Shown: piece by piece, positions 27,625 through 50,400 of the stretch
How the letters are laid out: every line of letters begins with the position of its first letter
Numbering within the stretch: the stretch's first letter is position 1
DNA from: Sinomonas mesophila
GTDB lineage: Bacteria > Actinomycetota > Actinomycetes > Actinomycetales > Micrococcaceae
DNA: 64,000 nt
Assembly (NCBI RefSeq): GCF_001999765.1
Contig: NZ_MTIC01000013.1
Coordinates: 124,001 to 188,000, forward strand
Direction of reading: 5' to 3'
Translations under genes and position numbers: made by a program
Notes under the pieces: model-generated
Databases searched by the model: none
The model's input: only the letters and a program-made list of their open reading frames with translations
Told to the model about the DNA's origin: nothing

Positions 27625-28034
27625 CGCGCGCCGCCGTCGTGCGCTCCGGTGCCGGCCGAGGCGGGGGCGCCCACGGCGGACACGTCGGGGAGCGCCGCTG
27701 CGGCCGCGAGGCGCTCGTGCGAGCCGGCGAGCGTGTCCAGGAGGAACGTCCGGGCGATCGCGAGGAGCTCGGCGACCGCGGGGTGGGCGAGCGAGTAGAC
27801 GACGGTGTTCGCGGTGCGGACGCTCGTGACGACGCCGTGCCGGCGCAGTGTGGCGAGGTGCTGGGAGAGGTGGGACGCCTCGAGGCCCGTCTCGGCGAGC
27901 AGATGGCTCACGGGGCACGACTGCCCTGCGGAGGCGGTGAGGATCTCGAGGACGCGGATGCGGGCCGGGTGCGCAAGCCCCTTGAAGAGGTTCGCCTTGA
28001 TCTCGTAGAGGGGCGCCTCGCGGTCGCTGAACAT
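27621..28034 (-). CDS. ArsR-family transcriptional regulator
   Basis: The 137-residue winged-helix repressor has the recognition helix region E-A-S-H-L-S-Q-H-L-A-T-L-R-R-H-G (about 50-65) and a wing with T-A-N-T-V-V-Y-S-L. One Cys (S-C-P-V-S) lies in the helix that forms metal sites in some ArsR proteins, but the C-V-C pair is missing, so the signal may not be a metal. ATG 28034 has GGAGG four bases upstream. It is translationally coupled to the SulP gene and likely controls it through the palindrome in its own promoter. Confidence 0.85.
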   Translation of the reverse strand: MFSDREAPLYEIKANLFKGLAHPARIRVLEILTASAGQSCPVSHLLAETGLEASHLSQHLATLRRHGVVTSVRTANTVVYSLAHPAVAELLAIARTFLLDTLAGSHERLAAAAALPDVSAVGAPASAGTGAHDGGAR

Positions 28035-28054
28035 GATGCCTCCAGATGATGACT

Positions 28055-28068
28055 TGATGAATTCATCA
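28055..28068. promoter_or_regulatory. Perfect 14-bp palindrome, probable ArsR operator
   Basis: TGATGAATTCATCA is an exact palindrome 20 bp upstream of the ArsR start and 38 bp upstream of the hadA-like start. It lies in the shared divergent region and could affect both directions. Confidence 0.65.
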
Positions 28069-28094
28069 TATCGATGCTGGCGAGGGGCACCGGA

Positions 28095-28106
28095 TAGGCT
28101 TTCCCC
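28095..28106 (+). promoter_or_regulatory. Probable leaderless promoter of the hadA-like gene
   Basis: TAGGCT (28095-28100) stands six bases before ATG 28107, with no Shine-Dalgarno sequence. Confidence 0.5.
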
Positions 28107-28556
28107 ATGGCCATCAACCCCGACCTGCAGGGCCGCGTCTACCCGGCCGCCGAGGCTTACGACGTCGGCCGCGAGAAGATCCGCGAGTTCGCGCGCGCCG
28201 TCAAGGCGCAGCACCCAGCCCATTTCGACCTCGACGCCGCCCGGGCCCTCGGGCACGCGGACCTCGTCGCGCCGCCGTCGTTCGCGATCATCGTCGCCCA
28301 GCGCGCGGATGCCCGGCTCATCGAGGACCCGGAGTCCGGCATCGACTTCTCCCGCGTCGTCCACGCCGAGCAGCGCTTCATCCACCACCGGCCGATCGTC
28401 GCCGGCGACCGGCTCGTCGCGGAGCTGCACGTGGACCAGGTCCGCGCGATGGGCGGCGGGGCGATGATCACGACCCGCGCCGAGATTTCAGGCGAGGACG
28501 GCGGCAAGGTCGCCACCACGACGTCGTCGATCCTCGTGAGGGGGGAGGGCCAGTGA
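28107..28556 (+). CDS. MaoC-like dehydratase N-domain protein (HadA-like)
   Basis: The 149-residue hot-dog protein matches the FAS1-like dehydratase domain found in mycobacterial HadA: F-A-R-A-V-K-A-Q-H-P-A-H-F-D near 33, A-P-P-S-F near 58, and E-Q-R-F-I-H-H-R-P-I-V-A-G-D near 91. It lacks the full MaoC catalytic Asp/His pair, as HadA does, and should act as a heterodimer with the next gene product, overlapping by GTGA. In mycobacteria the pair dehydrates 3-hydroxyacyl-ACP in FAS-II. Here the chemistry may be a related hydratase step. Confidence 0.8.
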   Translation: MAINPDLQGRVYPAAEAYDVGREKIREFARAVKAQHPAHFDLDAARALGHADLVAPPSFAIIVAQRADARLIEDPESGIDFSRVVHAEQRFIHHRPIVAGDRLVAELHVDQVRAMGGGAMITTRAEISGEDGGKVATTTSSILVRGEGQ

Positions 28557-29008
28557 GCGCCGTGTCCGTCAGCAGGCCCCGGTTCGAGACCCTGGAGAAG
28601 GGCGCCGAGATCGGCCGCCGCGAGATCTCCGTGACGCGCTCCGACCTCGTCACGTACGCCGGGGCGTCCGGGGACTTCAACCCGATCCACTGGAACAACG
28701 ACTTCGCCGTCTCGGTCGAACTGCCCGGGGTCATCGCCCACGGCATGTTCACGATGGGCGCGGCCGTCCAGCTCGTCGTCGACTGGGCCGGCGACCCGGC
28801 CGCCGTCATCGACTACCAGACCCGGTTCACGAAGCCCGTCCCCGTCGCGGACACGACCGGCACCGACGCCCCGGGCGCCGTCGTCGAGATCGTGGGCACC
28901 GTCGGGGCGCTCGACGCCGAGGCCCGCACCGCGCGCATCGACCTTGCCGTGACCTGCGCCGGCCAGCGCGTGCTGACCAAGGCGCAGGCGGTCGTGAAGC
29001 TCCCGTGA
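28553..29008 (+). CDS. MaoC-family hot-dog dehydratase (HadB-like)
   Basis: The 151-residue protein carries the MaoC active-site segment Y-A-G-A-S-G-D-F-N-P-I-H, with Asp and His five residues apart, then G-V-I-A-H-G-M. This is the catalytic subunit type that pairs with the HadA-like protein. Both junctions are 4-base GTGA overlaps (upstream and with murB), so translation is coupled across three genes. Confidence 0.82.
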   Translation: MSAVSVSRPRFETLEKGAEIGRREISVTRSDLVTYAGASGDFNPIHWNNDFAVSVELPGVIAHGMFTMGAAVQLVVDWAGDPAAVIDYQTRFTKPVPVADTTGTDAPGAVVEIVGTVGALDAEARTARIDLAVTCAGQRVLTKAQAVVKLP

Positions 29009-30069
29009 CCCAGACGCTCCTGTCGTCCCTGACCACCTCCGAGGTCGGCGGCCCCGCGGCGCGGTACGAAGAGGCGCGCACCGAGGCGGAGATCATCGAC
29101 GCCGTGCGCACCGCCGACGCCGCGGGCGAGCCGCTGCTCATCATCGCCGGCGGCTCGAACCTCGTCGTGTCCGACGACGGCTACCCCGGGACCGTCCTGA
29201 AGATCGCGTCGGAGGGGCTCGCCGTCGAGACGGCGGACACGTGCGGCGGCGCGTGCCTGACAGTCCAGGCCGGGCACGTGTGGGACGACGTCGTCGACTA
29301 CGCCGTGCGCCACGCCTTCAGCGGGCTCGAGGCCCTCTCCGGCATCCCCGGCTCGACCGGGGCGACTCCCGTGCAGAACGTGGGCGCGTACGGCGCCGAC
29401 GTCTCGCAGACCATCTGGCAGGTGCGCACGTGGGACCGTCAGGCCGGGGCGGTCAAGACGTTCGTCCCGGGCGAGCTGCGGTTCAGCTACCGCGACTCGC
29501 TGCTCAAGCAGACCACGGTTGAGGGCTCGCCGCGGTACGTCGTGCTGAGCGTGTCCTTCCAGCTCCCGCTCGGCCGCACGAGCGCCCCCGTGCGCTACGC
29601 GGAGCTCGCGCGGGCGCTCGGCATCGAGCAGGGGGAGCGGGCCTCGGCCCTCGAGGTGCGGCGCGAGGTCCTGCGCCTGCGTGCGTCCAAGGGCATGGTC
29701 CTTGACCCTGCCGACCGGGACACGTTCTCGACCGGCTCGTTCTTCACGAACCCCGTGCTGAGCGAGGCCGACGCCGCCGCCCTGCCCGAGGGCGCGCCCC
29801 GGTACCCCGCGGGGGAAGGGCTCGTGAAGACCTCCGCAGCCTGGCTCATCGAGCGCGCGGGCTTCCCCAAGGGCTATGGGCTCGCGCCGGACAGCGTGAC
29901 CGGCGGGCGCGCGTCCCTCTCGACGAAGCACACCCTGGCCCTGACCAACCGCGGCGACGCGAGCGCGAAGGACCTCCTGGCCCTCGCGCGCGACGTGCGG
30001 GACGGCGTCCGGCGCGAGTTCGGGATCGAGCTGCACAACGAGCCTCTGCTCATCGGCCTGGAGCTCTGA
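29005..30069 (+). CDS. murB: UDP-N-acetylenolpyruvoylglucosamine reductase
   Basis: The 354-residue flavoenzyme reduces UDP-GlcNAc-enolpyruvate to UDP-MurNAc in peptidoglycan synthesis. The FAD segment is I-I-A-G-G-S-N-L-V-V near 47, with G-I-P-G-S-T-G-A-T-P-V-Q-N-V-G-A-Y-G near 114 and the catalytic Ser in S-T-G-S-F-F-T-N-P near 247. The insert between domains suggests type I. The GTG start overlaps the HadB-like stop. The hadA-hadB-murB order is a known Micrococcaceae arrangement. Confidence 0.93.
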   Translation: MTQTLLSSLTTSEVGGPAARYEEARTEAEIIDAVRTADAAGEPLLIIAGGSNLVVSDDGYPGTVLKIASEGLAVETADTCGGACLTVQAGHVWDDVVDYAVRHAFSGLEALSGIPGSTGATPVQNVGAYGADVSQTIWQVRTWDRQAGAVKTFVPGELRFSYRDSLLKQTTVEGSPRYVVLSVSFQLPLGRTSAPVRYAELARALGIEQGERASALEVRREVLRLRASKGMVLDPADRDTFSTGSFFTNPVLSEADAAALPEGAPRYPAGEGLVKTSAAWLIERAGFPKGYGLAPDSVTGGRASLSTKHTLALTNRGDASAKDLLALARDVRDGVRREFGIELHNEPLLIGLEL

Positions 30070-30115
30070 GCCGCCCGCCCGTGTGACGGCTGCGCCTCTC
30101 AGGCATGATGGGGGC

Positions 30116-31243
30116 ATGGGACAGTCAGCCCGGTCACTGGGCACGACGACGCTCGCCCGACTCAGGCTCGCCGCGCAGGGGCTGCTCCCGGCCGCCTCCG
30201 TGGGGGAGGCGCTCGGGCAGGCAGCCGACCCGGTCGAGGCCGTCCGCCGCATGGGCGCCCTTCAGAGCCAAGACCTGCAGTCGGGGCTGCTCGCCGCGGG
30301 CGTGCGGACGCGGGCAGCGTCGGGCCGCGCCACGGCGTCGGGTGTGGCGGACGCCCTGGCGAGCGGCGCCGTCGTCCGCACCTGGACCATGCGCGGCACG
30401 CTCTTCCTCGTCGCGGCCGAGGACGCGAGGGCGTTCGTCCGGCTCGCCGCGGAGCGCATCATGCATGTGGCCTCGCCGCGGCACCGCGAGCTGGGGATTG
30501 GGAGCGAGGACGTCGACGCCGTCCGCCGCGTCGCCGAGTCCGCGCTCGAGGGCGGCAAGGGGCTGACCCGGCCCGAGCTGTTCGAGGCGTTCGAGGCGGC
30601 CGGCCAGGCCACGAAGGGCCAGCGGGGGATCCACCTGCTCTCGATCCTGAGCCACCGGCTCGTGCTCGTGCAGGGACCCCTGCGCGGGCGGCAGCAGGAG
30701 TTCCGGCTCGCGGACGAGTGGCTTCCCGCCGACGACGGGCCGCGCGGCGATGACGCGCTCGAGGCCATCGCCCGCAGGTACATCGCCTCCCACGGGCCCG
30801 TCGGCGAGCGTGACTTCGCCTGGTGGCTCGCCCAGCCGCTCGGGGTCGTCCGCGGGCCGTTCCGCGCCGCCGCTGCGGATGCCGACGTCGTCTCCTTCGA
30901 TGGCCGGGAGCTGTACTGCCTGCCGGACGTCGCCGCGCTCGCCGGGACGCGCGTGGGGGAGCGGGCCGCCGTGGCGGTGCCGGGCTACGACGAGCTTGCC
31001 ATCGGCTACCCGGACCGGTCTGTGGCGATCCCGCCGGAGTACCTCGACCGCGTGATCCCGGGAGTCAACGGGGTCTTCAAGGCGATGGTCGTGGTGGGCG
31101 GCCGGGCCGTCGGGACGTGGACCAAGGGAGGGAAGGCCTCGGCGCCGCGTCCCGAGCCGGCCCTGTACGAGGACCTCTCCCCGGCCGCATCCGCGGGGGT
31201 CGCGAAGGCCCTCGCCCGCATCGAGGCCTACTGGGCGGGGTAG
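30116..31243 (+). CDS. AlkZ/YcaQ-like winged-helix DNA glycosylase-family protein
   Basis: The 375-residue protein contains the winged-helix family (HTH_42) pattern: R-M-G-A-L-Q-S-Q-D-L-Q near 45, T-W-T-M-R-G-T-L-F-L near 92, G-E-R-D-F-A-W-W near 230. Characterised relatives (AlkZ, YcaQ) unhook interstrand crosslinks or excise alkylated bases using a Q-x-Q/Q-x-D motif; Q-S-Q-D here matches that region. CATGAT six bases before ATG 30116 may be a -10 for a leaderless mRNA. The in-frame GTG 30083 is less likely. Confidence 0.8.
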   Translation: MGQSARSLGTTTLARLRLAAQGLLPAASVGEALGQAADPVEAVRRMGALQSQDLQSGLLAAGVRTRAASGRATASGVADALASGAVVRTWTMRGTLFLVAAEDARAFVRLAAERIMHVASPRHRELGIGSEDVDAVRRVAESALEGGKGLTRPELFEAFEAAGQATKGQRGIHLLSILSHRLVLVQGPLRGRQQEFRLADEWLPADDGPRGDDALEAIARRYIASHGPVGERDFAWWLAQPLGVVRGPFRAAAADADVVSFDGRELYCLPDVAALAGTRVGERAAVAVPGYDELAIGYPDRSVAIPPEYLDRVIPGVNGVFKAMVVVGGRAVGTWTKGGKASAPRPEPALYEDLSPAASAGVAKALARIEAYWAG

Positions 31244-31262
31244 GGGACCCGCGCTGGTCGGG

Positions 31263-31282
31263 GCCCCACCCGAGCGTGGGGC
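31263..31282 (+). terminator. Hairpin after the AlkZ-like gene
   Basis: GCCCCAC (31263-31269) and GTGGGGC (31276-31282) pair perfectly around a 6-base loop, 20 bases past the stop. Confidence 0.5.
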
Positions 31283-31343
31283 GGCCACGCCTCCGGCCGG
31301 ATTGGCTGTATAGCCGGCCCGCATCTGCTGCCGAAGCCCGCAT

Positions 31344-31413
31344 GGGCTGCCCTTCGCCGCATCTGCGGCCCGGAGCAGGGCCGCCCTTGCGGCGGAGGGC
31401 AGGTGATGCGGTT
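31344..31413. repeat. REP-like palindromic element, left copy
   Basis: A 30-bp core at 31344-31373, with palindrome GCCGCA-TC-TGCGGC, matches 24 of 30 positions in a core right of the next gene. An inverted partner (GGCGGAGGGCAGGTGATGCGG region, 31391-31411) follows, so the element can fold as a paired stem, as REP/BIME units do. The rest of 31244-31532 holds only this and a terminator. Confidence 0.55.
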
Positions 31414-31532
31414 CCGCCGGGCTCGGTGGGGCGGAGCTGATCGGGACCCACGCGGCCAAATCCACGGCGCAGTTGTCCACAGGCGGGCGTTGGCTCGTTG
31501 CCCGGGGCTCGAGCGCACGCGAGGATCGCCGC

Positions 31533-32507
31533 ATGGACAGACGGATTGCGGAGGCCCTCATCGGAGCCAGATGGCCGGCTTCGGATGTTGTTTCCACGGC
31601 TGGTCTTCGCGCCGCCGGCATCGATGACCGGCTCGTGACCAGCGCGGTCCGCGCGGGCGCCGTCGTGCGTCTGCGTCGCGGGGCCTACATCCTGGCCCGT
31701 CGCTGGCAGGCCCTCGCTCCATGGGAGAAGGACCTGGCCCGCGTTGAGGCACATTGCGAGGCCACCGGGGCCGCGGCCGTCTACTGCCTCTCCAGCGCCG
31801 CGAGGCTCCACGGGCTTGCGGTGTGGAGCCCGACGCTTGCGAGGCACGCGGCAGCGCCGGTTCATGTGGCGACAGACTATGCCGGCTCAAGGACGAGCCG
31901 TGGCCCGGACGCTTTGTCCCATCAGCTCGGCCTCCGGCAGGAGGACGTTGTCGTCGTGGTGCGGGGCACGAGGCGCCTGAGGGCAACGTCATTGGCCCGG
32001 ACTGTAGCGGATTGCGCCCGGTTCCTGCCGTTCGAGGAGGCCGTGGTGATCGGCGACAGCGCCCTCCATCAGGGCGTCCCGATGGACGACATCGTGCAGG
32101 CACTCGCGGCAGGATCAACGCGTGGTCGCAGGAGGGCGATCAAGGTTCTGAGCTTCCTTGAGCCTGCGACGGAGTCTGTCGGTGAGTCCCGTACGCGGAT
32201 GCTCCTCGAACAACTGGGCTTCGACAAGCCCGTGGTCCAGCTCGGGCTGCACACCCCGGACGGGACCTACCGGGCGGACTTCGCGTGGGTCGAGCTCAAG
32301 ATCATCATCGAGTTCGACGGCGAGGGCAAGTACTTGGACTACCAGCCGGCACCGGCGGTGCTGCTAGCCGAGCGGCGCCGGGAGAGCCTCCTCATGGAAC
32401 AGGGCTGGATCTTCGTGAGGCTCCGGTGGGCCGACCTGGAGCGCCCCGACGACGTGCGACGCAGGCTCGATGCCGCCATCGCCCGCGCGCAGCGGCGTTC
32501 GGCGTGA
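31533..32507 (+). CDS. AbiEi-type antitoxin-domain/DUF559-like protein
   Basis: The 324-residue protein begins with a winged-helix like AbiEi antitoxins (S-T-A-G-L-R-A-A-G-I-D-D-R-L-V near 21, V-V-R-L-R-R-G-A-Y near 44). It ends with a DUF559/Vsr-like nuclease fold: E-S-R-T-R-M-L-L-E near 216, then Y-R-A-D-F-A-W-V and I-I-E-F-D-G-E-G-K-Y near 250. E, D and E-x-K residues are in the order of that nuclease superfamily. No AbiEii toxin follows. The gene stands alone between two REP-like elements, which suggests a transferable cassette. Function is not known. Confidence 0.65.
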   Translation: MDRRIAEALIGARWPASDVVSTAGLRAAGIDDRLVTSAVRAGAVVRLRRGAYILARRWQALAPWEKDLARVEAHCEATGAAAVYCLSSAARLHGLAVWSPTLARHAAAPVHVATDYAGSRTSRGPDALSHQLGLRQEDVVVVVRGTRRLRATSLARTVADCARFLPFEEAVVIGDSALHQGVPMDDIVQALAAGSTRGRRRAIKVLSFLEPATESVGESRTRMLLEQLGFDKPVVQLGLHTPDGTYRADFAWVELKIIIEFDGEGKYLDYQPAPAVLLAERRRESLLMEQGWIFVRLRWADLERPDDVRRRLDAAIARAQRRSA

Positions 32508-32544
32508 GGGGACAGCGCGCCTGCGGCCGGCAGAGGACCCGGAA

Positions 32545-32605
32545 CAGCTGCCCCCAGCCGCATGTGCGGCCCGGATCCCGGCAGCTGATGCGGCTGAGGG
32601 CAGCC
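32545..32605. repeat. REP-like palindromic element, right copy
   Basis: The core 32545-32574 contains GCCGCA-TG-TGCGGC. An inverted partner at 32581-32605 (GCTGATGCGGCTGAGGGCAG) follows within 6 bp. It matches the left copy in sequence and internal order. Confidence 0.55.
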
Positions 32606-32656
32606 CGTGCGGCCGAGGCCGGAGGGCAACGCCGAGGGCTGCAGCACAATGCCGAA

Positions 32657-32686
32657 GGGGGCCGGATCCCAGCGGATCCGGCCCCC
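32657..32686. terminator. Bidirectional hairpin terminator
   Basis: GGGGGCCGGATCC (32657-32669) pairs perfectly with GGATCCGGCCCCC (32674-32686) around CAGC, between convergent genes. Confidence 0.75.
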
Positions 32687-32703
32687 TCGAGGTCGCTCGG
32701 ACG

Positions 32704-33831
32704 TCAGAGCGTGCCGGTGGCGATCTTGAGCATGCGGCGCAGCGGCTCGGCGGCGCCCCACAGGAGTTGGTCGCCGACGGTGAAGGCCGAGATGTACTCA
32801 GGCCCCATCTCGAGCTTGCGGATGCGGCCCACCGGGATGTCGAGGGTGCCCGAGGCGGCCACAGGGGTCAGCTGCTCCATCGAGGCCTGCTTCTCGTTCG
32901 GGACCACGGTGGCCCACTCGTTGTCCTCGGCGAGGAGCTTCTCGATCTCCGCCACGGAGAGGTCCTCGCGCAGCTTGAGCGTGAGCGCCTGCGAGTGCGA
33001 GCGCATGGCGCCGATGCGCACGCACAGGCCGTCCATGACCACGGGCTCGAGCGCGGAGCCCGCGGCGGTGCCGAGGATCTTGTTCGTCTCGACGCCGGCC
33101 TTCCACTCCTCCTTGGACTGGCCGTTGCCGAGGTCCGCGTCGATCCAGGGGATGAGCGAGCCCGCGAGCGGGACCCCGAACTGGGTCGCGTCCACGCCGC
33201 CGCGCTGGGCCGCGAGGACCTTGCGGTCGATCTCGAGGATGGCCGACGCCGGGTCGGACAGCTCCGCGGCGACCTCGCCGTTGAGCGTGCCGAACTGGGT
33301 GAGGAGCTCGCGCATGTGGCGCGCCCCGCCGCCGGAGGCGGCCTGGTACGTCATGGACGTGCCCCACTCGACGAGGTTGTTCCGGAACAGCCCGCCGAGG
33401 CCCATGAGCATGCACGAGACGGTGCAGTTGCCGCCGACGAAGTCCTTCACGCCGGAGGCGAGGCCCTCGTCGATGACCGTCCGGTTGACCGGGTCGAGGA
33501 CGATGATCGAGTCCTCGTTCATGCGCAGCGTCGAGGCGGCGTCGATCCAGAGGCCGTCCCAGCCGCGGGCGCGCAGCTCGGGCTGCACCCTCTTGGTGTA
33601 GTCGCCTCCCTGCGCGGTGACGATGATCGGGAGCTTGGCGAGCGCGTCGACGTCGAACGCGTCCTGGAGGGGTCCCGCGCCGTCAGCGAACGACGGGGCA
33701 GCGCCGCCCGCGTTGGACGTCGAGAAGAACACGGGGTTGATCGAGGCGAAATCGCCCTCATCCTGCATGCGCTCCATGAGCACGGAGCCGACCATGCCAC
33801 GCCAGCCGACGAAGCCTACCGAAGAAGTCAT
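32704..33831 (-). CDS. asd: Aspartate-semialdehyde dehydrogenase
   Basis: The 375-residue enzyme makes aspartate semialdehyde for lysine, threonine, methionine and diaminopimelate. The NADP loop is [12 protein letters not shown] (6-17), and catalytic Cys136 is in [14 protein letters not shown] and the length are typical of the enterobacterial-type branch rather than the shorter form common in other actinobacteria. TAGAAT (33839-33844, complement) seven bases before ATG 33831 predicts a leaderless mRNA. No lysC is adjacent. Confidence 0.93.
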
Positions 33832-33923
33832 GGGTTCTATTCTACGGACGACGGCGAGTGCTCGCCTGTGGTGTGCATCTCACCCGGGGGTGGGGCCCCG
33901 CTCGGACCCGCCCCCGGGGAGAG

Positions 33924-34325
33924 TCACTTGATCGGATCAGGGAGACCGCGCTTGCGGCGCAGGGCCTTGGCCCGGGCCTCCCGGAGGGTGGCCTGCCCGC
34001 CGATCCACGTGAAGGCGGCCGACACGGCGGCAGCGAGAAGGCCCAGCCACACGGGGCCCTCTGGGGTCCAGAACGAGACGACGAAAGCCACGGCGCACAC
34101 GAGGGTTAGCCCCACCATCACGACCGACAGGATCGTCATGCCCCACACGCTGCGGACCTGGGACTCGAGGCCGTGGGTGGAGTTGCCGTACTCGTCGAGG
34201 GTGTAGCTGTGGAGTTCGCCGTCCTTGCCGCGGGCGAGGATGCGATGCCCGCCCTGAGTGGCGAGCTCCCGGTGGAGCGCGCGGGCCTGCTCGTCACGGA
34301 GGGCCCTCAGGGGATCCTTCGCCAT
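33924..34325 (-). CDS. Two-helix membrane protein of the WXG100 cassette
   Basis: The 133-residue protein has a basic, soluble N-terminus (about 1-60), two membrane helices (about 63-85 and 90-110) and a strongly basic end R-E-A-R-A-K-A-L-R-R-K-R. It begins two bases downstream of the stop of the preceding gene and belongs to the same operon as the WXG100-type protein. It could act as a membrane partner or immunity protein for that product (inference). No family is recognised. Confidence 0.6.
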   Translation of the reverse strand: MAKDPLRALRDEQARALHRELATQGGHRILARGKDGELHSYTLDEYGNSTHGLESQVRSVWGMTILSVVMVGLTLVCAVAFVVSFWTPEGPVWLGLLAAAVSAAFTWIGGQATLREARAKALRRKRGLPDPIK

Positions 34326-34327
34326 GG

Positions 34328-34978
34328 TCAGCCGCGACGGATGTCGTCGATCGCGGCGAGCAGAGCGGCGTCGTCGGCGGGGAGCTCGTCCACGGAGTCG
34401 GTCTCCGGGACGTAGGTGCCAACCGTCCATGCGGAGCCACCGCGCTTGACGAGGAGTCGGCGGCCCTGCGCATTGTCGGGGCGCCCCAGGGCTGCGCCGC
34501 CGTCGGGGTTCTGCTCGAGGTGCTTGCGCAGGATGAACAGCATCGTCTCGGCGGCCGAAAGGTCTGGGCGCTGCGCCATCGCCCACCACGTGTTGAACGC
34601 GCGGGGCTGGAGGAGGATGCCGATTCCCTCCGCCTCGACGAGGGCAAGGCGGTCGATCGAGTCGGCTGTCAGGAGGGACAGGTTCACGACGCGCTCGGCG
34701 TGGCCCAGCGCGTGGGCCAGGGCGGCGATCGGGCCGGAGACCTCGAGCTCCTCGTCGGGCGTGGCCGTGGCCAGGCCCCGGGCCACGAGGGACGAGGCCC
34801 CCGCGGACACCACCAGCTCGTTGCCGAGCTGGTCTGCCAGGCCAAGGGCCACCGCCGTCGATTCCGTCGACGGCCCGGGCTGGAAGGCGAACAGGGCTGC
34901 GAGCTCGGCGAAGCCGAGGCCGATCTGGTCCGGGGAGTCTGTCGACGGCGTCGGGGTCTGCTCTGCGGTACTCGTCAT
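34328..34978 (-). CDS. Conserved-type soluble protein of the WXG100 cassette, possibly EspG-like
   Basis: The 216-residue protein is soluble and alpha/beta, without signal or membrane segments. Features seen are L-G-F-A-E-L-A-A-L near 20, a G-L-A-T-A-T-P-D-E-E turn near 70, and W-T-V-G-T-Y-V-P-E-T-D near 183. Its placement between a WXG100-type gene and a membrane protein gene, its size and its strand layout recall EspG chaperones of type VII secretion, but I see no decisive motif. It could also be a cytosolic immunity protein. It begins 18 bp after the WXG100-type stop. Confidence 0.5.
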   Translation of the reverse strand: MTSTAEQTPTPSTDSPDQIGLGFAELAALFAFQPGPSTESTAVALGLADQLGNELVVSAGASSLVARGLATATPDEELEVSGPIAALAHALGHAERVVNLSLLTADSIDRLALVEAEGIGILLQPRAFNTWWAMAQRPDLSAAETMLFILRKHLEQNPDGGAALGRPDNAQGRRLLVKRGGSAWTVGTYVPETDSVDELPADDAALLAAIDDIRRG

Positions 34979-34996
34979 GGAAGCCTCCTGTTGGGG

Positions 34997-35998
34997 TCAG
35001 AATCCGAAGAAGTCGCCGACGGCCTTGGCGCCGTCGGAAATGGCTCCGCCGACGGCCTTGGCTCCGTCAGCCACGGCGCTGGCAGCACCGTCCACGGCGT
35101 TCCTGACGGCCGGCACGTTGTCGTAGAGCGTCCATCCTGCCGTGATGACGCCGGCGATGACGTTGGCGGGTGGCGGAGCGAAGACCGACGCGACTCCCAG
35201 CGCGGCCTTGGCGGACGAGGCGATGCCGCCCGCAACGTTGCCCTCGCTGAACTTGTCGATGGCCGAGATCCCGTCGATGCCGGCCCCGAGCACGCCGAGG
35301 CCCTTGGTGGCGACGTTGAAGGCCTTGAAGGCCCGCGAGTCCTCGGCGAGGCCGACGAGTTTGTGCCAGTTGCCGCTCACGGCGTCGCTCGACGCGTTGA
35401 AGGCACGGCTCAGGCCTGCCGCCAGCGCCTCGTCGGGCCAGTTCTGCGGCTTCGCCACATCCCACGCCAGCCGCGCGTAGGACGAGAACGGGTTGACGAC
35501 TCCGGCCCCGAAGGTCTTCGCCATGACCGAGAGGTCGAAGACCCCGGCCCGGATCTTCGGGAAGGCCTTGATCATCGACCAGGTGGACCAGCCCTTGCGG
35601 AAGGGCGAGTTCTTGTCCTCGAGCCAGTTCGGGATCCAGGGGTTGTCCTTGTTGTCCGTGGTTCCCGCACCGCCGGGTCCGCCCGGGGCGCCTGGCCCCG
35701 GCGCGCTCGCGGTGCGCGCCCCGAGCTCGGCGCTCGCCGTCTCCTGCGCCTCGGCGTTGGCCGCAAGAGTGCGGGCGTTCTCGCTCAGCGTGGCGGCGAG
35801 CTTCGCAAACGCGGGGCGGTGCAGCTGGGCCCACTGGCGGGTGAACTCCTCGGCGTCCTTGCCACCCCACACCTGCGGCAGGCGCGACGTGAGCTGGTCG
35901 ATCGACCTCTGGACATTCTTGATCGACGTCGACTTCATCGTGAACTGCTTGCCGAGCGCCCTGAGCTGCTCAGGGTTCGCCCCTTGCTTGATCGTCAA
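34997..35998 (-). CDS. WXG100-like N-terminal domain protein with hydrophobic Gly/Ala-rich C-terminus
   Basis: The 333-residue protein starts with two amphipathic helices joined by a turn L-P-Q-V-W-G-G-K-D-A (about 37-46), the W-x-G hallmark of ESX/type VII secreted proteins. Y-x-x-x-D/E-like export text was not found. A Pro/Gly linker (about 100-125) leads to a C-terminal region with several Gly/Ala/Val-rich, membrane-seeking stretches (about 230-333), ending with repeats of A-D-G-A-K-A-V-G. The start is TTG 35998, five bases after AGGGGGG; the longer frame adds uncharacteristic residues. The layout is like secreted polymorphic toxins of Gram-positives, but no known toxin domain is recognised. 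No EccC ATPase is in the window. Confidence 0.6.
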   Translation of the reverse strand: MTIKQGANPEQLRALGKQFTMKSTSIKNVQRSIDQLTSRLPQVWGGKDAEEFTRQWAQLHRPAFAKLAATLSENARTLAANAEAQETASAELGARTASAPGPGAPGGPGGAGTTDNKDNPWIPNWLEDKNSPFRKGWSTWSMIKAFPKIRAGVFDLSVMAKTFGAGVVNPFSSYARLAWDVAKPQNWPDEALAAGLSRAFNASSDAVSGNWHKLVGLAEDSRAFKAFNVATKGLGVLGAGIDGISAIDKFSEGNVAGGIASSAKAALGVASVFAPPPANVIAGVITAGWTLYDNVPAVRNAVDGAASAVADGAKAVGGAISDGAKAVGDFFGF

Positions 35999-36131
35999 CG
36001 TTCCCCCCCTTCGTGCAATGTCTGCAGCCAACGTACCGGTGTTCTCATCGGCTTCGCGATGGGGACGTCTCCCCACGGCGAGGCGGCACGCACCAGCCGT
36101 CTCCCGGGGGTCCGCGTTCTCCAGGGGCTCA

Positions 36132-36195
36132 GGAATCTAGCTTCGCCGAAACCTATGCCCTGCGGAATCTAGCTTCGCCGAAACCTATGCCCTGC
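36132..36195. repeat. 32-bp perfect tandem duplication at the end of the DHFR gene
   Basis: The unit starting GGAATCTAGCTTCGCC occurs at 36132-36163 and again at 36164-36195, followed by a third GGAAT. The right copy includes the last four codons and stop of the dihydrofolate reductase gene (36185-36195); the left copy is a downstream duplicate. The period is not a multiple of three. Confidence 0.85.
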
Positions 36196-36742
36196 GGAAT
36201 TCCGCGATGCGGTACCGCACGCCCGAGACCGAGGTGAGCCATCCGCCGTCGTCCGGGGTCACGGCCTCGAGCCGCCACTGGGTCCCGAGCGGGGGCGCGA
36301 AGGTGTCCCCGTCGGCGTCGCTGTCCAGGATCGTCACCATCGCGAGGTCCGCGAGCGGCATGGCCTCGGCGAAGATCTCCCCTCCGCCGATCACCCACAC
36401 GAGGTCGCCGCCCTCGGCCTCGGCCGCCGTTGCGAGCGCCTCGTCGAGGGAGTGCACGACGACGGTTCCGCTCGCCTCCCAGCGGGGCTGGCGCGTGATG
36501 ACGATGTTCGTCCGGCCGGCGAAGGGCCGGTACTTCTCGGGGATCGAGTCCCACGTCCGCCGGCCCATCACGACGGGATGGCCCGCCGTCGTCGCGGCGA
36601 AGTGCTTCATGTCCTCCGGCACGTGCCACGGCATGCCGCCGTCGCGGCCGATCACGCCCTCCTGGGTCTGGGCCCAGATGAGCCCGATCGTGGGGCGCGC
36701 GCCTTCGGAGCCCGTCACACCGCTGGCCATGCTGCCGTTCAT
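36185..36742 (-). CDS. folA: Dihydrofolate reductase
   Basis: The 185-residue enzyme reduces dihydrofolate to tetrahydrofolate. Motifs seen are [15 protein letters not shown] near 31 with the active-site acidic residue in the E-D pair, [12 protein letters not shown] near 57, and W-V-I-G-G-G-E-I-F near 115. The start overlaps the thymidylate synthase stop by 4 bases. A 32-bp duplication has copied its last codons downstream. Confidence 0.93.
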
Positions 36743-37557
36743 ACGGCCACTGATGCCTTGATCGCGGGGTGGTGCCGGTAGCCCAGCACCTCGAAATCCT
36801 CGAACCGGTAGTCGAAGATGCTCTCGGGGCGGCGCGTGAAGGCCAGGCGCGGCGGCTCGAAGGGCTCGCGCGAGAGCTGCTCGCGGACCTGCTCGAGGTG
36901 GTTGTCGTAGATGTGGCAGTCACCGCCGGTCCAGACGAGCTCGCCCACACCGAGGTCGAGCTGCTGCGCGACCATGTGGGTCAGGAGCGCGTAGGAGGCG
37001 ATGTTGAAGGGGACGCCGAGGAACATGTCCGCGCTGCGCTGGTACAGCTGGCACGAGAGCTTCGCCGGCCCCTCCTCGGAGGGCGCGACGTAGAACTGGA
37101 AGAACGCGTGGCACGGGGGCAGGGCCATGTTGTCGATCTCGGCCACGTTCCACGCCGAGACGATGTGGCGGCGCGAGTCGGGGTTCGTGCGCAGGGACTC
37201 CATGAGCCCCGCGATCTGGTCGATGTGCCGCCCGTCCGGCGTGGGCCACGAGCGCCACTGGACGCCGTAGACGGGTCCCAGCTCGCCGTCGTCGTCCGCC
37301 CACTCGTCCCAGATCGTGACGCCCTGCTCCTGGAGCCAGCGCACGTTCGACTCGCCCCGCAGGAACCACAGCAGCTCGAGCGCCACCGACTTGAAGTGCA
37401 CGCGCTTCGTCGTCACGAGCGGGAAGCCCGCGGAGAAGTCGAAGCGGATCTGGCGGCCGAAGACGCTGCGCGTCCCCGTGCCGGTGCGGTCGGCCTTGTG
37501 GACTCCGTGCTCGAGGACGTCGCGCAGGAGGTCCTCATAAGGGGTCGGGATGCTCAC
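36739..37557 (-). CDS. thyA: Thymidylate synthase (ThyA)
   Basis: The 272-residue enzyme methylates dUMP with methylene-THF. The catalytic Cys149 is in A-L-P-P-C-H, with [12 protein letters not shown] and the C-terminal K-A-S-V-A-V. GTG 37557 is preceded by TAGACT (37564-37569, complement) at six bases, another leaderless signature. It is coupled to the dihydrofolate reductase gene, which regenerates the folate it oxidises. Confidence 0.95.
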
Positions 37558-37570
37558 TCGGCCAGTCTAG

Positions 37571-38545
37571 TCAGTCGTCGAACGGCCGGACCTGCTCCAG
37601 CGCGACGACACGTGGGGGGCCGGCCACGGGCACGTGGAACACGAGGAGCTCGCCGGGCGCGAGGTACGGGTCCGAGGACGGGAGCCTGGCCTCGAGTCCC
37701 TCCTCGAGATAGACCGAGAACTGCTTCAGCAGGGTCGGCAGGACGGGCCGGTGCGAGCAGATCACCGAGGGCTTCCCCTTGTCAAACAGGCGCACGACGT
37801 CGGCGGCGGCCTTGTGCGGCCGGCGATCGTGGCGGTGCTCGGTCAGGTCCTCGGAGAGCTTGAGCTTGATCTTCACCCTCGAGGCGCGCACGTAGGGCAG
37901 CACCGTGTCGACGCAGCGCCGCCACGGGCTCGTCACGACCCGGGTCGGCCTCCACACGCTCAGGAGCCTGCCGACGGCCTGGGCCTGCCGGACGCCGGTC
38001 GCGGCGAGCGTGCGGTCGCCCTCGGCCTTGGTCCACGAGCCGCGCGGCTTCGCCTTGGCGTGGCGAAGGAGGATGAGCGGCCGGGTGTCGAGCGCGCCCC
38101 GGACGTCCTCCTCCTCGAGGGCGTCGAGCGGCTCGACGTCCGAGCGGTTGCTCAGGAGGAGCCGGGCCTCCTCGGCGCTGCACCAGTGCACCGCGTCGAC
38201 CTCGTCGCCGTCGGGCATGATCCTGTCCCCGGGGCCCACGTGCATCGCCCAGTAGTGGACGGACTTGAGCCCCGCGACGACCTCGTAGTGCGTCGTGGGC
38301 AGCGGGATCCCGAGGGGGACGTCGAGCCCGATCTCCTCGCGGATCTCCCGCGAGGCGCACTCGTGGAGCGTCTCGCCGTTGTCGAGCTTGCCCTTGGGCC
38401 AGGACCAGTCGTCGTAGCGGGGCCGGTGGATGAGGAGCACCTCGAGTCCCCCGGCGTTGTGCCGCCAGGGAATCGCCCCGGCGGCGCGTACCACGACGGG
38501 GTTCTCCCCGGCGGCGGGGCGGCCCTCGACCGGCGTGTCCGACAT
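37571..38545 (-). CDS. mutT1: NUDIX hydrolase fused to histidine phosphatase (MutT1-type)
   Basis: The 324-residue protein joins an N-terminal NUDIX domain, with the box G-K-L-D-N-G-E-T through R-E-I-R-E-E-I-G (52-73), to a C-terminal histidine-phosphatase domain with the L-L-R-H-A-K-A motif near 160. This architecture is that of mycobacterial MutT1, which hydrolyses 8-oxo-(d)GTP and dinucleoside polyphosphates. It overlaps the polyphosphate kinase stop by one base (TGATG), so the two are coupled. Confidence 0.85.
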   Translation of the reverse strand: MSDTPVEGRPAAGENPVVVRAAGAIPWRHNAGGLEVLLIHRPRYDDWSWPKGKLDNGETLHECASREIREEIGLDVPLGIPLPTTHYEVVAGLKSVHYWAMHVGPGDRIMPDGDEVDAVHWCSAEEARLLLSNRSDVEPLDALEEEDVRGALDTRPLILLRHAKAKPRGSWTKAEGDRTLAATGVRQAQAVGRLLSVWRPTRVVTSPWRRCVDTVLPYVRASRVKIKLKLSEDLTEHRHDRRPHKAAADVVRLFDKGKPSVICSHRPVLPTLLKQFSVYLEEGLEARLPSSDPYLAPGELLVFHVPVAGPPRVVALEQVRPFDD

Positions 38546-40941
38546 CAGCGGCGGCTCGCAGCGCGCTGCCGCGCCCTGGAGGCGAGCAGCCAGGACTGGA
38601 TGTCCTCGTGGTGATGCCCGTTCCCGTCGAGGTGGTGGCGCGTCCACTCGCCCTCGCGGTCGAGGTGCCACGACGACGTGCTGTCGGCGAGGTACCGGTC
38701 CAGGAGCCCGATGAGCTCGGCGATGTCCTCGCGGCTGCGCAGCTGGACGAGGGCCTCGACGCGGCGGTCGAGGTTGCGGTGCATCATGTCCGCCGAGCCG
38801 ATGTACACGACCGGGTTGCCCCCGTTGGCGAACGCGAAGACCCGCGAGTGCTCGAGGAAGCGCCCCAGGACGGAGCGGACGGTGATGTTCTCGCTCAGGC
38901 CGGGCACGCCGGGGCGCAGCGCGCAGATCCCGCGGACGATCACATCGACCTTCACCCCGGCCTGCGAGGCCCGGTAGAGCGCGTCGATGACGGCCTCGTC
39001 CACCATCGAGTTGACCTTGATGATGACCCGGGCGCGCAGCCCTGCGCGGGCGTTGCGGATCTCGGCCTCGATGCGGTCGATGAGGCCCGAGCGGACGGAG
39101 CGCGGCGCCACGAGCAGGCGCTTGAACGTGGACTTCGGCGCGTACCCGGAGAGCTGGTTGAAGAGCTTCGAGAGGTCCTCGCCCACCTGCTCGTCGCAGG
39201 TCAACAGGCCGAGGTCCTCGTAGTAGCGGGCCGTGCGCGGGTGGTAGTTGCCCGTGCCGATGTGGCAGTACCGTCGCAGCCCGTCGTTCTCCTGGCGCAC
39301 GACGAGGGAGAGCTTGCAGTGCGTCTTGAGCCCCACGATGCCGTACACGACGTGCACGCCCGCCTGCTCAAGCTTGCGCGCCCACGAGATGTTGGCCTGC
39401 TCGTCGAAGCGGGCCTTGATCTCGACGAGCGCGAGGACCTGCTTCCCGGCCTCGGCGGCGTCGATGAGCGCGTCCACGATCGGCGAGTCGCCGGACGTGC
39501 GGTACAGGGTCTGCTTGATCGCCTGGACCTTCGGGTCCGCCGCGGCCTGCTCGAGGAACGCCTGCACGGACGTCGAGAACGAGTCGTAGGGGTGCTGGAG
39601 GAGGATGTCGCGGCGGCGCATCGCGGCGAACACATTGGCCGCCTTGGACGTCTCGGACTCGTTGAGGAACCGCGACGTGTGCGCGAGGTGCTTGGGGTAG
39701 TGCAGGTCGGCGCGGTCGATCCCGGCGATGACGCTGAGCCCGCGCAGGTCCAGCGGGGTCGGCAGCTGGTACACCTCGCTCTCCTCGACCCCGAGCTCGC
39801 GCACGAGCAGGGCGAGGATGTTCGGGTTGATGTCGTCCGTGACCTCGAGCCGCACCGGGGGCCCGAAGCGCCGGCGCAGGAGCTCCTTCTCGAGGGCCTG
39901 GAGGAGGTTCTCGGCGTCGTCCTCCTCGACCTCGAGGTCCTCGTTGCGCGTCACGCGGAACGTGTGGTGCTCGAGCACTTCCATGCCCGGGAAGAGCTGG
40001 TCGAGGTGGACGGCGATGAGCTCCTCGAGTGCGATGAAGCGCGCCCTCCGGCCCGAGACGGTCCCGGCGCGGGGGCCGTCGATCGAGATGAGGCGGGGAA
40101 GCTGGTCCGGGACCTTGAGGCGCGCGAAGAGCTCCTTGTCGCTGATCGGGTTGCGGACCACGACGGCGAGGTTGAGCGAGAGCCCCGAGATGTACGGGAA
40201 CGGGTGGGCGGGGTCCACGGCGAGCGGGGTCAGGATCGGGAAGACCTGCTCCGCGAACATCTGGCTCAGGCGGCCCCTGGCCTCGTCGTCCAGCTCGGAC
40301 CAGTGCACGAGGTGGATGCGTTCCTGCTCGAGCGCGGGGCGGATCTGCTCGGCGAAGACGCGGGCGTGCCGCTCCTGGAGCTCGTGGGCCGCCTCCGAGA
40401 TCTGGTCGAGCACCTCGATGGGGCTCAGGCCCGCGGGGGAGGGGACGGCGAGGCCGGTCGCGATGCGGCGCTTGAGCCCCGCGACGCGGACCATGAAGAA
40501 CTCGTCGAGGTTCGAGGCGAAGATCGAGAGGAAGTTGACCCGCTCGAGGAGGTACAGCGAGGGGTCCTCGGCGAGCTCGAGCACGCGCGCGTTGAACGCG
40601 AGCCAGCTCAGCTCGCGGTCGAGGAAGCGGTCCGGCCCGACGACCTCGCCCTCGGGCTCGAGCCGCGGGGCGAACTCCGGGATGTCGATCCGGTCCTGGG
40701 TCGCGCGGGAGGGCGGGACCTCCGACGAGCCGAAGACGGGCTGGGTGCGCGGTGCGGCCGCCGCGGACGACGCCGCCTCGACGCCCACCGCCGGGGCGTC
40801 GCCGAGCGCTGTGGTGAGCTCTTCGGCCGCCTGGGCGGAGGCGCCGTCGGTCGCGGCGAGGCTGCCGCCGAAGGCGGTGAGGGTCGTGTCAGTCTGCGGC
40901 GCCGTTGCTGCACTGCTCTCGTTCTGGGCGGCTTCAGTCAT
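38545..40941 (-). CDS. ppk1: Polyphosphate kinase 1
   Basis: The 798-residue enzyme makes polyphosphate from ATP reversibly. The four PPK1 domains are recognisable: L-S-W-L-A-F-N-A-R near 110, P-Y-I-S-G-L-S-L-N near 252, the catalytic-His region L-K-T-H-C-K-L, and C-H-I-G-T-G-N-Y-H. An extra Ala-rich N-terminus of about 90 residues is present. GGAGG precedes ATG 40941. Coupling with MutT1 puts phosphate storage and nucleotide clean-up under one control. Confidence 0.93.
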
Positions 40942-40980
40942 GGTTCCTCCGCAGGAGCTGGTCTCTTGCAGACAACCCTA

Positions 40981-41961
40981 CTAGCGCGCGGCGCCCGCGG
41001 GGGCATACAGGATGTCCTGGTCCCACAGCGTGAAGCCGAGGCGGCGGTACAGGGCCACCGCGGCCCGGTTGTCCGCATCCGTGTAGAGCATGACCGTCGC
41101 GAGGCCCTGCCCGTGCAGGTGGTCGATGCCGTGGAGGGTCAGGGCGCGCCCGAGGCCGCGGCCCTGCGCCTCGGGCACGACGCCGACGGCGTAGACCTCG
41201 CCGATGGCCCGGTGCTCGCCGTGGGCCGGGTGGACCTTGGTCCAGTGGAAGCCGAGGATCCTGTCCTCGGGGTCGACGGCGAGGAAGAACCCCGCGGGGT
41301 CGAACCAGTCCTCCGCCATGCGGGCCTCGAGGTCGCTGCGGCGCAGCGCCCCCTGCTCGGGGTGGTTCGCGAAGGCGGCCCGGTTGGCCTCGAGCCACGC
41401 ATCCTCGTCCTGGCCGGGCCGGAAGGGGCGGATCGTCACGCCGTCGGGCAGCGGCCCCTCGGCCTCGTGCGGGTGGCGGACGAGCACCATCTTCCACAGC
41501 TGGCGCTCCGCGACGAAGCCGTAGGTGGCGGCCAGCTCGGCGGCCGCCTCATGGTTGCCGTGGGACCAGGCCTTGAGGCCCGTGAAGCCCGCCGCGCCGC
41601 GCAGCTCGCGGACCGCCTCGACGAGCCGCATGCCCACGCCCTGGTTGCGGTAGTTCGGGTGCACGGCCAGCTCGGCCACCCCGGAGCCGTCGGGGGCGAA
41701 GGCGATCGCGGCGAGCCCCGCGAGGTCCTCCGGTGCGGAGGACCCCGCGGTGTCGTCGAGCGCGTGGACGGCGACCGTGAGCAGCTCCTCGGAGCGGGTC
41801 TGCGGCGAGCGCATGAGGACAGTGGTCTGCTCCGAGAGGGAGGGGTTGCCGTCAGAGTCCTCGGCGGCCGCGAGGAGGTCGCGGATCTCGGACCAGAGGG
41901 CCTGCGGGACGCGGCCCTCGACGACGGTGGCGGGCCAGTCCTGCGGGTATGCGCTCGTCAT
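40981..41961 (-). CDS. mshD: Mycothiol synthase
   Basis: The 326-residue protein has two tandem GNAT domains: V-H-P-N-Y-R-N-Q-G-V-G near 105 and V-V-P-E-A-Q-G-R-G-L-G near 262 bind acetyl-CoA. The second domain has L-Y-T-D-A-D-N-R-A-A-V-A-L-Y, typical of MshD. It acetylates Cys-GlcN-Ins, the last step of mycothiol synthesis. TAGCCT (41969-41974, complement) seven bases before ATG 41961 suggests a leaderless mRNA. Confidence 0.9.
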   Translation of the reverse strand: MTSAYPQDWPATVVEGRVPQALWSEIRDLLAAAEDSDGNPSLSEQTTVLMRSPQTRSEELLTVAVHALDDTAGSSAPEDLAGLAAIAFAPDGSGVAELAVHPNYRNQGVGMRLVEAVRELRGAAGFTGLKAWSHGNHEAAAELAATYGFVAERQLWKMVLVRHPHEAEGPLPDGVTIRPFRPGQDEDAWLEANRAAFANHPEQGALRRSDLEARMAEDWFDPAGFFLAVDPEDRILGFHWTKVHPAHGEHRAIGEVYAVGVVPEAQGRGLGRALTLHGIDHLHGQGLATVMLYTDADNRAAVALYRRLGFTLWDQDILYAPAGAAR

Positions 41962-42021
41962 GAACGCAAGGCTAGCGAATGACGGTGGGATTGGAGCGGG
42001 CGCGGTGCCGAGATGTCGTTT

Positions 42022-47498: not shown

Positions 47499-50400
47499 GT
47501 GCGTCGAGCCGGGGGGTTGCTGCGCCGCCATGCCGCGAAGGCGATCACGGGGACCGCGATGTCCCTTGTCGCGGCGGTCCTTGTGGCCGCGGCGATCTTC
47601 TACCCGGGCTTCCGCTCCGTCTCCGCCGAGCTCAATGACGGCGGTGTGTGGGTCACCAACGGCTCGATGAACATGGTGGGCCACCTCAACTTCTCCTCCA
47701 AGATCCTCGACAGCGGGCTCGCCGCGCGCTCGTCGAGCTTCGACGTCGTCCAGCAGGGCCGGTCCGTCGCGGTCCAGGACAAGGGCGTCGGGACCCTGAG
47801 CCCGGTCGACGCCGCGGAGGTCCGCCTCACCGCCGACCTGTCGTTCGGCGGCAGCAGCGCGGCGGCGTTCGGCACGACGACGGCGGCCCTCGCCGATCCG
47901 GGCAGGGGACGCCTGTGGGCGCTCGGCCTCGACAGCCTCACGGGCTTCAACCCCGAGACCACCGAGCCGACGGTCGAGGACGTGCCCGGCGTCGTTGCGA
48001 CGGTGACCACGGAGAACGAGGTCGTGGGCGTCTCCCCGGCCCGCGCCGAGATCGTCCGCGTGCCGGAGGGCGGCGAGCCGCGCTTTACGAAGGTCGACGG
48101 CCTGAGCACCTCCGCGAAGGTCCAGCTCGCGGCGGTCGGGGGCGACGCCGTCGTCCTCGACGCCGGCTCCGGGACCCTGTTCCTGCCCGGCGGCGGCCGC
48201 GTCCAGCGCGACGTGTTCCGCAGCGCGCAGCTCCAGGAGAGCGGGCCCGACGCCGACGCGGTGGCGGTCGGAACGGCCGAGGGCGTCGCGCTCGTGCCGC
48301 TCGGCGGCGGCGAGCCCCGCGTGCTCCAGGCGGCGGGTGGGCGCGAGGGCCTGCCCGCGCGGCCCGTCCAGCAGAACGGATGCGTGTACGGCGCGTGGGC
48401 CGGCACGGGCGTCTACCTGCGCGCGTGCGGCTCGGGCGCCCCGGAGCTCAAGGACATCCCCTCCGTGCGGCCCGACTCCGAGCTCGTGTTCCGCACGAAC
48501 CGCGACCTCGTGGTGCTCAACGACGTCCGCGGCGGCAACGTCTGGCTCGTGACCGACCAGATGCAGCTCGTGAACAACTGGCAGGAAATCGTCCCCCAGA
48601 AGCAGACCAAGACGGGGGAGCAGGAGGATTCCGCGGAGGTCATGCTCCAGAAGGAGCTTCCCGACCGCAGCGAGGAGAACAAGCCGCCGACCGCGATGCC
48701 GGACGACTTCGGCGTCCGGCCGGGCCGCACGGTCATCCTGCCCGTGCTCCTGAACGACACCGATCCCGACGGCGACGTGCTCTCCGTCCGCGCGATCGGC
48801 GCTGCCCCGCGCCTCGGGCAGGTGCAGACGATCTTCAACGGCGCGGCCCTCCAGATCGTGGTCGGCGCGGAGGCCACCGGAACCGAGCCGTTCGACTACG
48901 AGGTCTCGGACGGGCGCGGGGGGACCGCGACCGCGCGCGTGAACCTCACCGTCCGCGAGGACACCGCGAACGTGGCGCCGCGCCAGGTGCGGGTCAACAC
49001 GATCGCCGTCGAGCAGGGCACCTCGGTCTCCCAGAACGTCCTCGGCGACTTCGTCGACCCGGACGGCGACGAGGTCTTCCTCGCCGGGGTGAGCACGGCG
49101 GGCGACGGCGACTCCGTCCGCTTCCAGACGGACGGCACCGTGATCTTCCAGGACGGCGGGAAGACGGTCGGCAGGAAGGAGATCACGGTCCGCGTCTCCG
49201 ACGGGCGGGACGTGGCCGAGGCGACGATCCGCGTCGACTCCCGCCCCCGGGGCACGCTGCCCCCGCAGACGACCCCGGACCACGTCCGCACGGGCACGGG
49301 CGAGCCCATCGTCGTCTCGCCGCTCGCGAACGACATCGACCCCTCGGGCGCCGGGCTGCGCCTGCTCAAGGTCGAGCCCGTGCCGGGCCTCGACGTCGTC
49401 ATGAACTCCGAGGACGGCACGTTCTCGGCGACGGCGGCCGAGCCCAAGGTCTACTACGCTGTCTACCTCGCGTCGAACGGCGCCGCGACGGCCCAGGGGC
49501 TCGTGCGCATCGACATCGAGCCACGGATGCAGGACTCGGGTGCGCCCGTGGCCGTGCGCGACGTCGCGCTCCTGCCCGCGGGCGGTAACGTCCTCGTGGA
49601 CCCGCTCGCGAACGACACGGACCCGGCCGGTGGAGTGCTCGTGGTCCAGTCGATCTCGCTCCCGCAGGGCGCGCCCGTGACCGTCTCGATCATCAACCAC
49701 GCCGTCCTGCGCATCACGGACACCCGCGGGCTCAAGGAGCCGCTCTCGATCGGGTACGTCATCTCGAACGGGGACAGGACCGCGAGCTCGACCGTCACGG
49801 TCACCCCGGTCCCGGCCCCCGAGAAGCTCGAGCCGCCGGTCGCGAAGAACGACGAGGTCGTCGTGCGGGCGGGGGACACCGTGACCATCCCGGTGCTGGG
49901 GAACGACTCGCACCCGAACAACGTCCCGATCACGCTCGATCCCGAGCTCGTCGAGGTCCCGGATTCCGCCATGGGGCACCTCTTCGTGGACCAGGAGACG
50001 CTGCGCTTCTCGGCGGGGCAGAATGCCGGGACCGTGTACGGGATCTACCAGGTCGTCGACCCGGCCGGGCAGAAGGATTCGGCCAAGGTCTCCATCACGA
50101 TCCGCGCCGCGGACCCGACGCAGAACGCCCAGCCCGTGCCGAAGAACCTCACGGCCCGCCTTCTCGCCGGGCACACGGCCAAGGTCGCCGTGCCGCTCGA
50201 CGGCGTCGACCCGGACGGCGACTCCGTGACGATCACGGGCATCGAGAAGGCGCCCGCCCTCGGCACCGCGATCGTCAAGGACGGCTACATCGAGTACAGC
50301 GCCGCGAACAACGCCAGCGGCAAGGACACCTTCACCTACGTCGTGGAGGACAGGTTCGGGGGCCGCGGCATCGCGACGGTCATGGTCGGCGTCGCCGCCG

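Follow-up and report, generated by a model that had tools for sequence, protein, structure and literature searches.

A stretch of 64,000 nucleotides of Sinomonas mesophila DNA (the window; positions 124,001 to 188,000 of contig NZ_MTIC01000013.1, contig C8 in the 4.0 Mb draft assembly) carries three adjacent genes, W, F0 and T, all encoded on the minus strand and bounded by dfrA (36185-36742) and asd (about 32704-33831). We found that W-F0-T is most likely a polymorphic-effector cassette of the type VII secretion system (T7SS), composed of three families without assigned function, in a group of bacteria in which such effectors are little known. W begins with a WXG100 domain, the remainder of W is exchanged between lineages together with F0 and T, and every genome of the family with the cassette also encodes a close homologue of a T7SS ATPase. 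Probably, W is an exported, membrane-active antibacterial effector, F0 a soluble partner specific for its C-terminus, and T a membrane immunity protein. Type VII effectors with antibacterial action have been described chiefly in Bacillota, and to our knowledge little has been learned of what T7SSs export in Actinomycetota outside mycobacteria. A search of the open literature, with subscription papers and unpublished annotation outside its scope, found no paper on T7SS effectors of this bacterial family.

Gene layout and the WXG100 domain of W

W (34997-35998, minus strand) encodes 333 residues from a TTG start at 35998 and is followed after 18 bp by F0 (34328-34978, minus strand, 216 residues) and after 2 bp more by T (33924-34325, minus strand, 133 residues), in the place and order given by an earlier sequence-only reading of this DNA. 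That reading had described F0 as an unrecognised soluble protein, and F0 indeed had no match in Pfam, NCBIfam or PADLOC. It had also taken T for a basic membrane protein with two helices, in agreement with the basic tail and the hydrophobic segments at residues about 61-86 and 92-110 that we observed, and had placed none of the products in a known toxin family; neither F0, T nor the C-terminal domain of W, which had no Pfam match, reached the cut-off of any family searched. The W-x-G helical hairpin attributed to W was borne out by a match to PF06013 above the cut-off. In contrast, its "long membrane-seeking C-terminus" (residues about 106-333; 35000-35683, minus strand), a helical, Gly/Ala-rich and hydrophobic candidate membrane-active domain, proved only moderately hydrophobic here, with a grand average of hydropathy (GRAVY) of +0.09, a best 21-residue window of 1.59 and no clear set of transmembrane helices.

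A G-rich stretch lies upstream of the TTG codon of W, and homologues begin at the same residue (MAIxQGAN); the ATG codon of F0 is preceded by AGGAGG six bases upstream. No sigma-70-like promoter was found in the W-F0-T region, and an Rfam search of 28000-42000 gave no match. Ratios of nonsynonymous to synonymous substitution rates (dN/dS) against the nearest relative were 0.23 for W, 0.31 for F0 and 0.24 for T. Because of these values and the 40 homologous W-F0 pairs present in 31 genomes, W-F0-T is not a chance set of open reading frames. Besides, a perfect 32-bp tandem duplication (36132-36195) covers the 3' end of dfrA and the spacer upstream of W.

The WXG100 domain occupies residues 7-84 of W (35747-35980, minus strand) and matched PF06013 at 33.9 bits (cut-off 27.3), or at 37.7 bits in a genome-wide search. 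Its W-x-G motif is W44-G45-G46, of which the tryptophan and the second glycine are invariant in the alignment of homologues, and a low-confidence single-sequence model places the helices of the hairpin at residues 9-43 and 49-97. The profile of the W family retrieved solved EsxA crystal structures (E = 3.8e-10), and the N-terminus of W was 39% identical over 91 residues to the genome's own EsxA (E = 1.1e-14); judged by sequence, this N-terminus is a paralogue of the EsxA of the T7SS locus. A search with NCBIfam TIGR03930 gave 33.6 bits, under the cut-off of 44.85. The first 100 residues, for which the sequence-only reading had suggested a WXG100 or LXG profile search, scored above the curated cut-off for WXG100, and no LXG domain was matched in W at E values up to 1; by this measure W is a WXG100-fused effector and not an LXG effector. 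Its size is atypical of free-standing WXG100 proteins of about 100 residues, owing to the extra domain of about 220 residues. No small WXG100-like Lap partner adjoins W, and the EsxA-type matches in the genome were the two EsxA copies and W itself.

Joint exchange of the cassette and its association with a type VII machine

Relatives of F0 were found in 13 of 16 genomes of the genus and in 49 of 248 sampled genomes of the family. Neighborhoods within the genus had two states, either a solitary F0 flanked by dfrA and asd or the full W-F0-T order, and two congeners carried a second set of W, F0 and a membrane protein between guaB and guaB2. Six-frame hidden Markov model searches of the fetched F0 loci, on which all counts of W-F0 pairs rest, revealed 40 pairs in 31 of the 248 genomes, usually one or two cassettes per genome, at several chromosomal sites and nearly always followed by a membrane protein. 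Of 39 cassettes, 36 encoded a protein with two or with three to four transmembrane helices after F0, so that the conserved co-occurrence of the three genes, on which the sequence-only reading had made its proposal depend, was seen in many other genomes. W-F0 also occurred in a second family of the order, in two genomes, and neither W nor F0 had a match among 72,556 plasmids.

We compared similarity matrices of the W N-terminus, the W C-terminus, F0 and T over 36 cassettes, with shared ancestry only partly corrected, as is also true of the co-occurrence counts. The C-terminus correlated strongly with F0 (0.92) and T (0.86), as did F0 with T (0.84), whereas the correlations of the N-terminus with the rest were 0.55-0.60 (0.56 with F0). 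With the other two elements held constant, the partial correlations were 0.73 for C-terminus and F0 and 0.40 for C-terminus and T, neither of which was reached in any of 2000 permutations, compared with 0.11 for N-terminus and F0 and -0.01 for N-terminus and C-terminus. For example, identity to the cassette of a congener (G004) was 68% for the N-terminus of W, 43% for its C-terminus and 36% for F0, whereas between that congener and a member of another genus (G023) it was 33%, 55% and 56%, respectively. The N-terminus of W follows the species, and the C-terminus, F0 and T are exchanged jointly, as in polymorphic toxins, which are recognized by a variable C-terminus on a conserved N-terminus that co-varies with downstream genes. 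A species-bound N-terminus is as expected of an export module that fits its own machine. Given this joint exchange, the sequence comparisons make the C-terminal domain a likelier partner of F0 than the helical hairpin.

The sequence-only reading had noted that no secretion ATPase is nearby. This statement held for the window but not for the genome, where the search for an EccC-type ATPase that it had proposed identified an FHA-bearing ATPase of the EssC/EccC type on contig C16. At this locus a 94-residue WXG100 protein (EsxA) adjoins a 1494-residue FtsK/SpoIIIE ATPase whose N-terminus bears an FHA domain; further on are FHA proteins, a Ser/Thr kinase and PP2C, together with further genes named by eye as RDD, transglutaminase, DUF58 and MoxR. 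The combination by which T7SSd is recognized, namely a WXG100 protein, an FHA-FtsK ATPase and a kinase in one cluster, was thus present, and in gene content the machine resembles the T7SSd type of Actinomycetota.

A close homologue of the ATPase was found in 47 of 248 family genomes, including all 31 with a cassette, and the cassette occurred in none of the 201 genomes without the homologue (Fisher p = 5e-28, a value overstated since the species are related). Within the genus, the cassette was present in 4 of 5 ATPase-bearing genomes and in 0 of 11 ATPase-less genomes (p = 0.003), and the fifth ATPase-bearing congener had a WXG100 fusion with a different partner of 263 residues and a membrane protein. 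Besides, of the 18 genomes in which F0 but no cassette was detected, 15 lacked a close ATPase homologue. Together with the WXG100 match and the conservation of the cassette, these counts support the proposal of the sequence-only reading that W is a T7SS effector encoded with partners.

The window contains a second gene associated with the same machine, outside the cassette. It encodes a protein of 2003 residues with Ig, cadherin and fn3 repeats (47559-53570, plus strand; Pfam Big_9, Cadherin_4 and fn3), which has an N-terminal signal or transmembrane segment and no C-terminal transmembrane helix and is unlinked to the T7SS locus. It was present in exactly 5 of the 16 genus genomes, the same five that encode the ATPase, a coincidence expected 1 in 4368 times by chance. 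T7SSd includes TsdI, a large Ig-like exported protein with a signal peptide and a C-terminal transmembrane helix (PMC11217815). Because the Ig-repeat protein tracks the ATPase across the genus and T7SSd has such a component, a part of the T7SS machine, here a candidate TsdI-like envelope component, probably lies only 12 kb from the cassette, with the ATPase elsewhere.

Two EsxA genes on different contigs (L025:9912-10196 and L026:9669-9953, both minus strand) differed at 2 of 285 bases and had unrelated flanks. In a congener, both sites likewise encode a pair of similar EsxA proteins, whose identity to the copies here is only 67%, which suggests gene conversion between the unlinked EsxA copies.

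Proposed functions of W, F0 and T

We propose that W is a substrate of the bacterium's own T7SS, with the WXG100 hairpin as its predicted export module, and that its C-terminal domain of about 220 residues would insert into and damage the membrane of neighboring cells. F0 would act in the cytosol as a specific binder of this domain, keeping it inactive and soluble in the producer and perhaps also escorting it to export, and T, a candidate immunity protein, would protect the cell from within its membrane against incoming toxin. The C-terminus, F0 and T may then form one exchangeable toxin module that is plugged onto the species-specific N-terminus.

The assignment of F0 and T drew on copies found apart from W. 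In the F0 tree, which contained 38 orphan and 39 cassette copies, W-less copies fell in several clades nested among cassette copies, and about ten changes between the two states were required. W-less F0 copies of the genus were under purifying selection (dN/dS 0.08-0.22), and most were in genomes without the secretion ATPase. In genera with neither W nor F0 at the dfrA-asd site, T was kept there by itself, and next to some cassettes T was present in tandem. T7SS immunity genes are typically retained as orphans and as tandem copies (PMC9484751), and by analogy F0 and T appear to persist without W as orphan immunity genes do. Because of these orphan and tandem copies and the precedents of TelE/TipE and TspA/TsaI (see below), we prefer F0 as the neutralizer that binds the C-terminus and T as the membrane immunity protein.

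F0 could instead be a dedicated secretion chaperone, similar to EspG/EsaE or Eag, that shields the hydrophobic C-terminus until export and leaves immunity to T alone. F0 is one conserved family directly after W and co-varies most strongly with the hydrophobic domain, the types of T vary more, as those of immunity proteins do, and EspG-like chaperones are present in several T7SS types (PMC11217815). However, F0 is under purifying selection in genomes that have neither T7SS nor W and hence no client for it, and F0 as EspG (PF14011) gave no hmmscan match and an hhalign P of 0.036, no better than the 0.032 of the best of 27 unrelated control families, despite a suggestive aligned motif. We therefore consider a pure chaperone role of F0 unlikely.

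Other candidate identities for F0 and T were rejected. A match of F0 to fascin in the PDB (E 0.07) was due to chance, and one in the contig search (L041) was a spurious antisense reading near a gatA-like gene. The matches of T to SLATT_1 (17.4 bits, cut-off 26.3), Cpta_toxin (15.5 bits, cut-off 27.3) and PADLOC LeoBC (17.3 bits) were below cut-off or short, as is typical of helical hairpins. Besides, a genus from a different family of the order had F0 relatives of about 230 residues (L191-L204), one per genome, in a seemingly shared neighborhood that contained no WXG100 gene, and two T homologues outside the dfrA-asd site (L215 and L217, one of them in tandem) had no recognizable W or F0 neighbors.

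With regard to the activity of W, the C-termini of the 39 F0 cassettes had about 220 residues, 17% Gly and on average 1.9 His and 0.6 Cys per domain. Their mean GRAVY was +0.15, in contrast to -0.39 for a set of 12 further WXG100 fusions in these bacteria, which were mostly 450-550 residues long, had in some cases enzyme-like C-termini (e.g., lipase-like), adjoined lipoproteins or small soluble proteins, and were without F0 or T. This contrast in hydropathy between the C-termini of F0 cassettes and those of the 12 other fusions suggests that F0 and T go with a class of effectors that act on membranes. The C-terminal domain might also be an enzyme of an unrecognized family that attacks membrane lipids or works in the cytosol, and it is true that it has no homologue of known function; the few His and Cys residues, the high Gly content, the hydrophobicity and a partner, T, in the membrane make this rather improbable. 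That W is exported for the producer's own envelope in a structural or signaling role, with F0 and T as assembly partners and no toxin, would agree with the absence of a known toxin domain from W family searches, with the usual one or two cassettes per genome and with purifying selection on W, F0 and T, but it is doubtful given that lineages exchange the C-terminus, F0 and T jointly and retain the N-terminus, that tandem T and W-less F0 and T are the signature of a conflict system, and that a sister WXG100 fusion has a lipase-like domain.

Several observations weigh against the membrane-active effector that we favor. No C-terminal domain matched a known pore-former family, and the glycine pattern in this W is weak. 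The single-sequence AlphaFold2 models of F0 and W were poor (predicted local distance difference test scores of 39 and 47), and thus no fold supports the pore idea. Also, T7SS-free congeners have an orphan F0 but no T, which agrees with immunity only on the condition that F0 is protective by itself.

The hydrophilic fusions were located at L238, L244, L253, L236, L240-L243, L246, L247, L251 and L252, one of them lipase-like, and three follow a protein of 258-302 residues whose profile aligns with EspG (P = 0.0014). A sister cassette (L205:4013-6383, L239, L245 and L249) has a WXG100 fusion with a hydrophobic C-terminus followed by an unrelated soluble protein of 257-266 residues, which has the conserved motif LPTLTDEE(I/V)VALDG and small membrane proteins nearby.

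More tentatively, and with somewhat less than even confidence, W-F0-T may represent a new class of T7SS effectors in Actinomycetota with dual immunity (F0 and T), in which the cassette moves between genera and sites away from the secretion locus and the F0 antitoxin persisted on several occasions as an orphan in species without a T7SS, whether lost or never acquired. The cassette yields three protein families without known function, each with a testable role, and a second gene of the window (47559-53570) is tied to the same machine. The co-occurrence with the ATPase provides a rule for predicting which species bear the cassette, and the F0 and T partners offer a marker for unlinked T7SS effectors in place of proximity to the machine.

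Comparison with known systems

The machine shares with T7SSd (TsdA, C, D, H and I; PMC11217815) a WXG100 protein, an FHA-FtsK ATPase, a Ser/Thr kinase and, as a candidate counterpart of TsdI, a large Ig-repeat exported protein, which is unlinked here and has no clear C-terminal transmembrane helix; this genome also adds PP2C, extra FHA, RDD, transglutaminase, DUF58 and MoxR genes. Micrococcaceae and Arthrobacter are absent from the main text of the T7SSd paper (PMC11217815). The EspG/EsaE chaperones (PF14011) are, similar to F0, soluble, of comparable size and encoded with a WXG-type substrate, but F0 has no significant profile similarity to them and tracks the C-terminal rather than the helical N-terminal domain.

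TspA of Staphylococcus aureus is a membrane-depolarizing T7SS effector with the membrane-bound immunity protein TsaI (PMC7456083). Membrane immunity, for which T is the candidate here, and tandem immunity copies are common to both systems, whereas T is a two- or four-helix protein without similarity to DUF443, which it did not match in Pfam, and no F0-like protein has been reported for TspA.

The other precedent is TelE of Streptococcus gallolyticus, a pore-forming LXG T7SS effector that is neutralized by its soluble neighbor TipE (DUF5085) and not by an adjacent multi-pass protein (PMC10434224). TelE has an LXG N-terminus and W a WXG100 domain, F0 lies directly after the effector with T after F0, and F0 has no match to DUF5085 or another Pfam family (none of 17 F0 proteins matched DUF5085). 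Nevertheless, both systems encode a T7SS effector, with export predicted here from the genes, that has a Gly-rich hydrophobic C-terminus and is followed by a multi-pass membrane gene and a soluble gene, and in TelE-TipE the soluble partner binds the toxic region, as we predict for F0 and the C-terminus of W.
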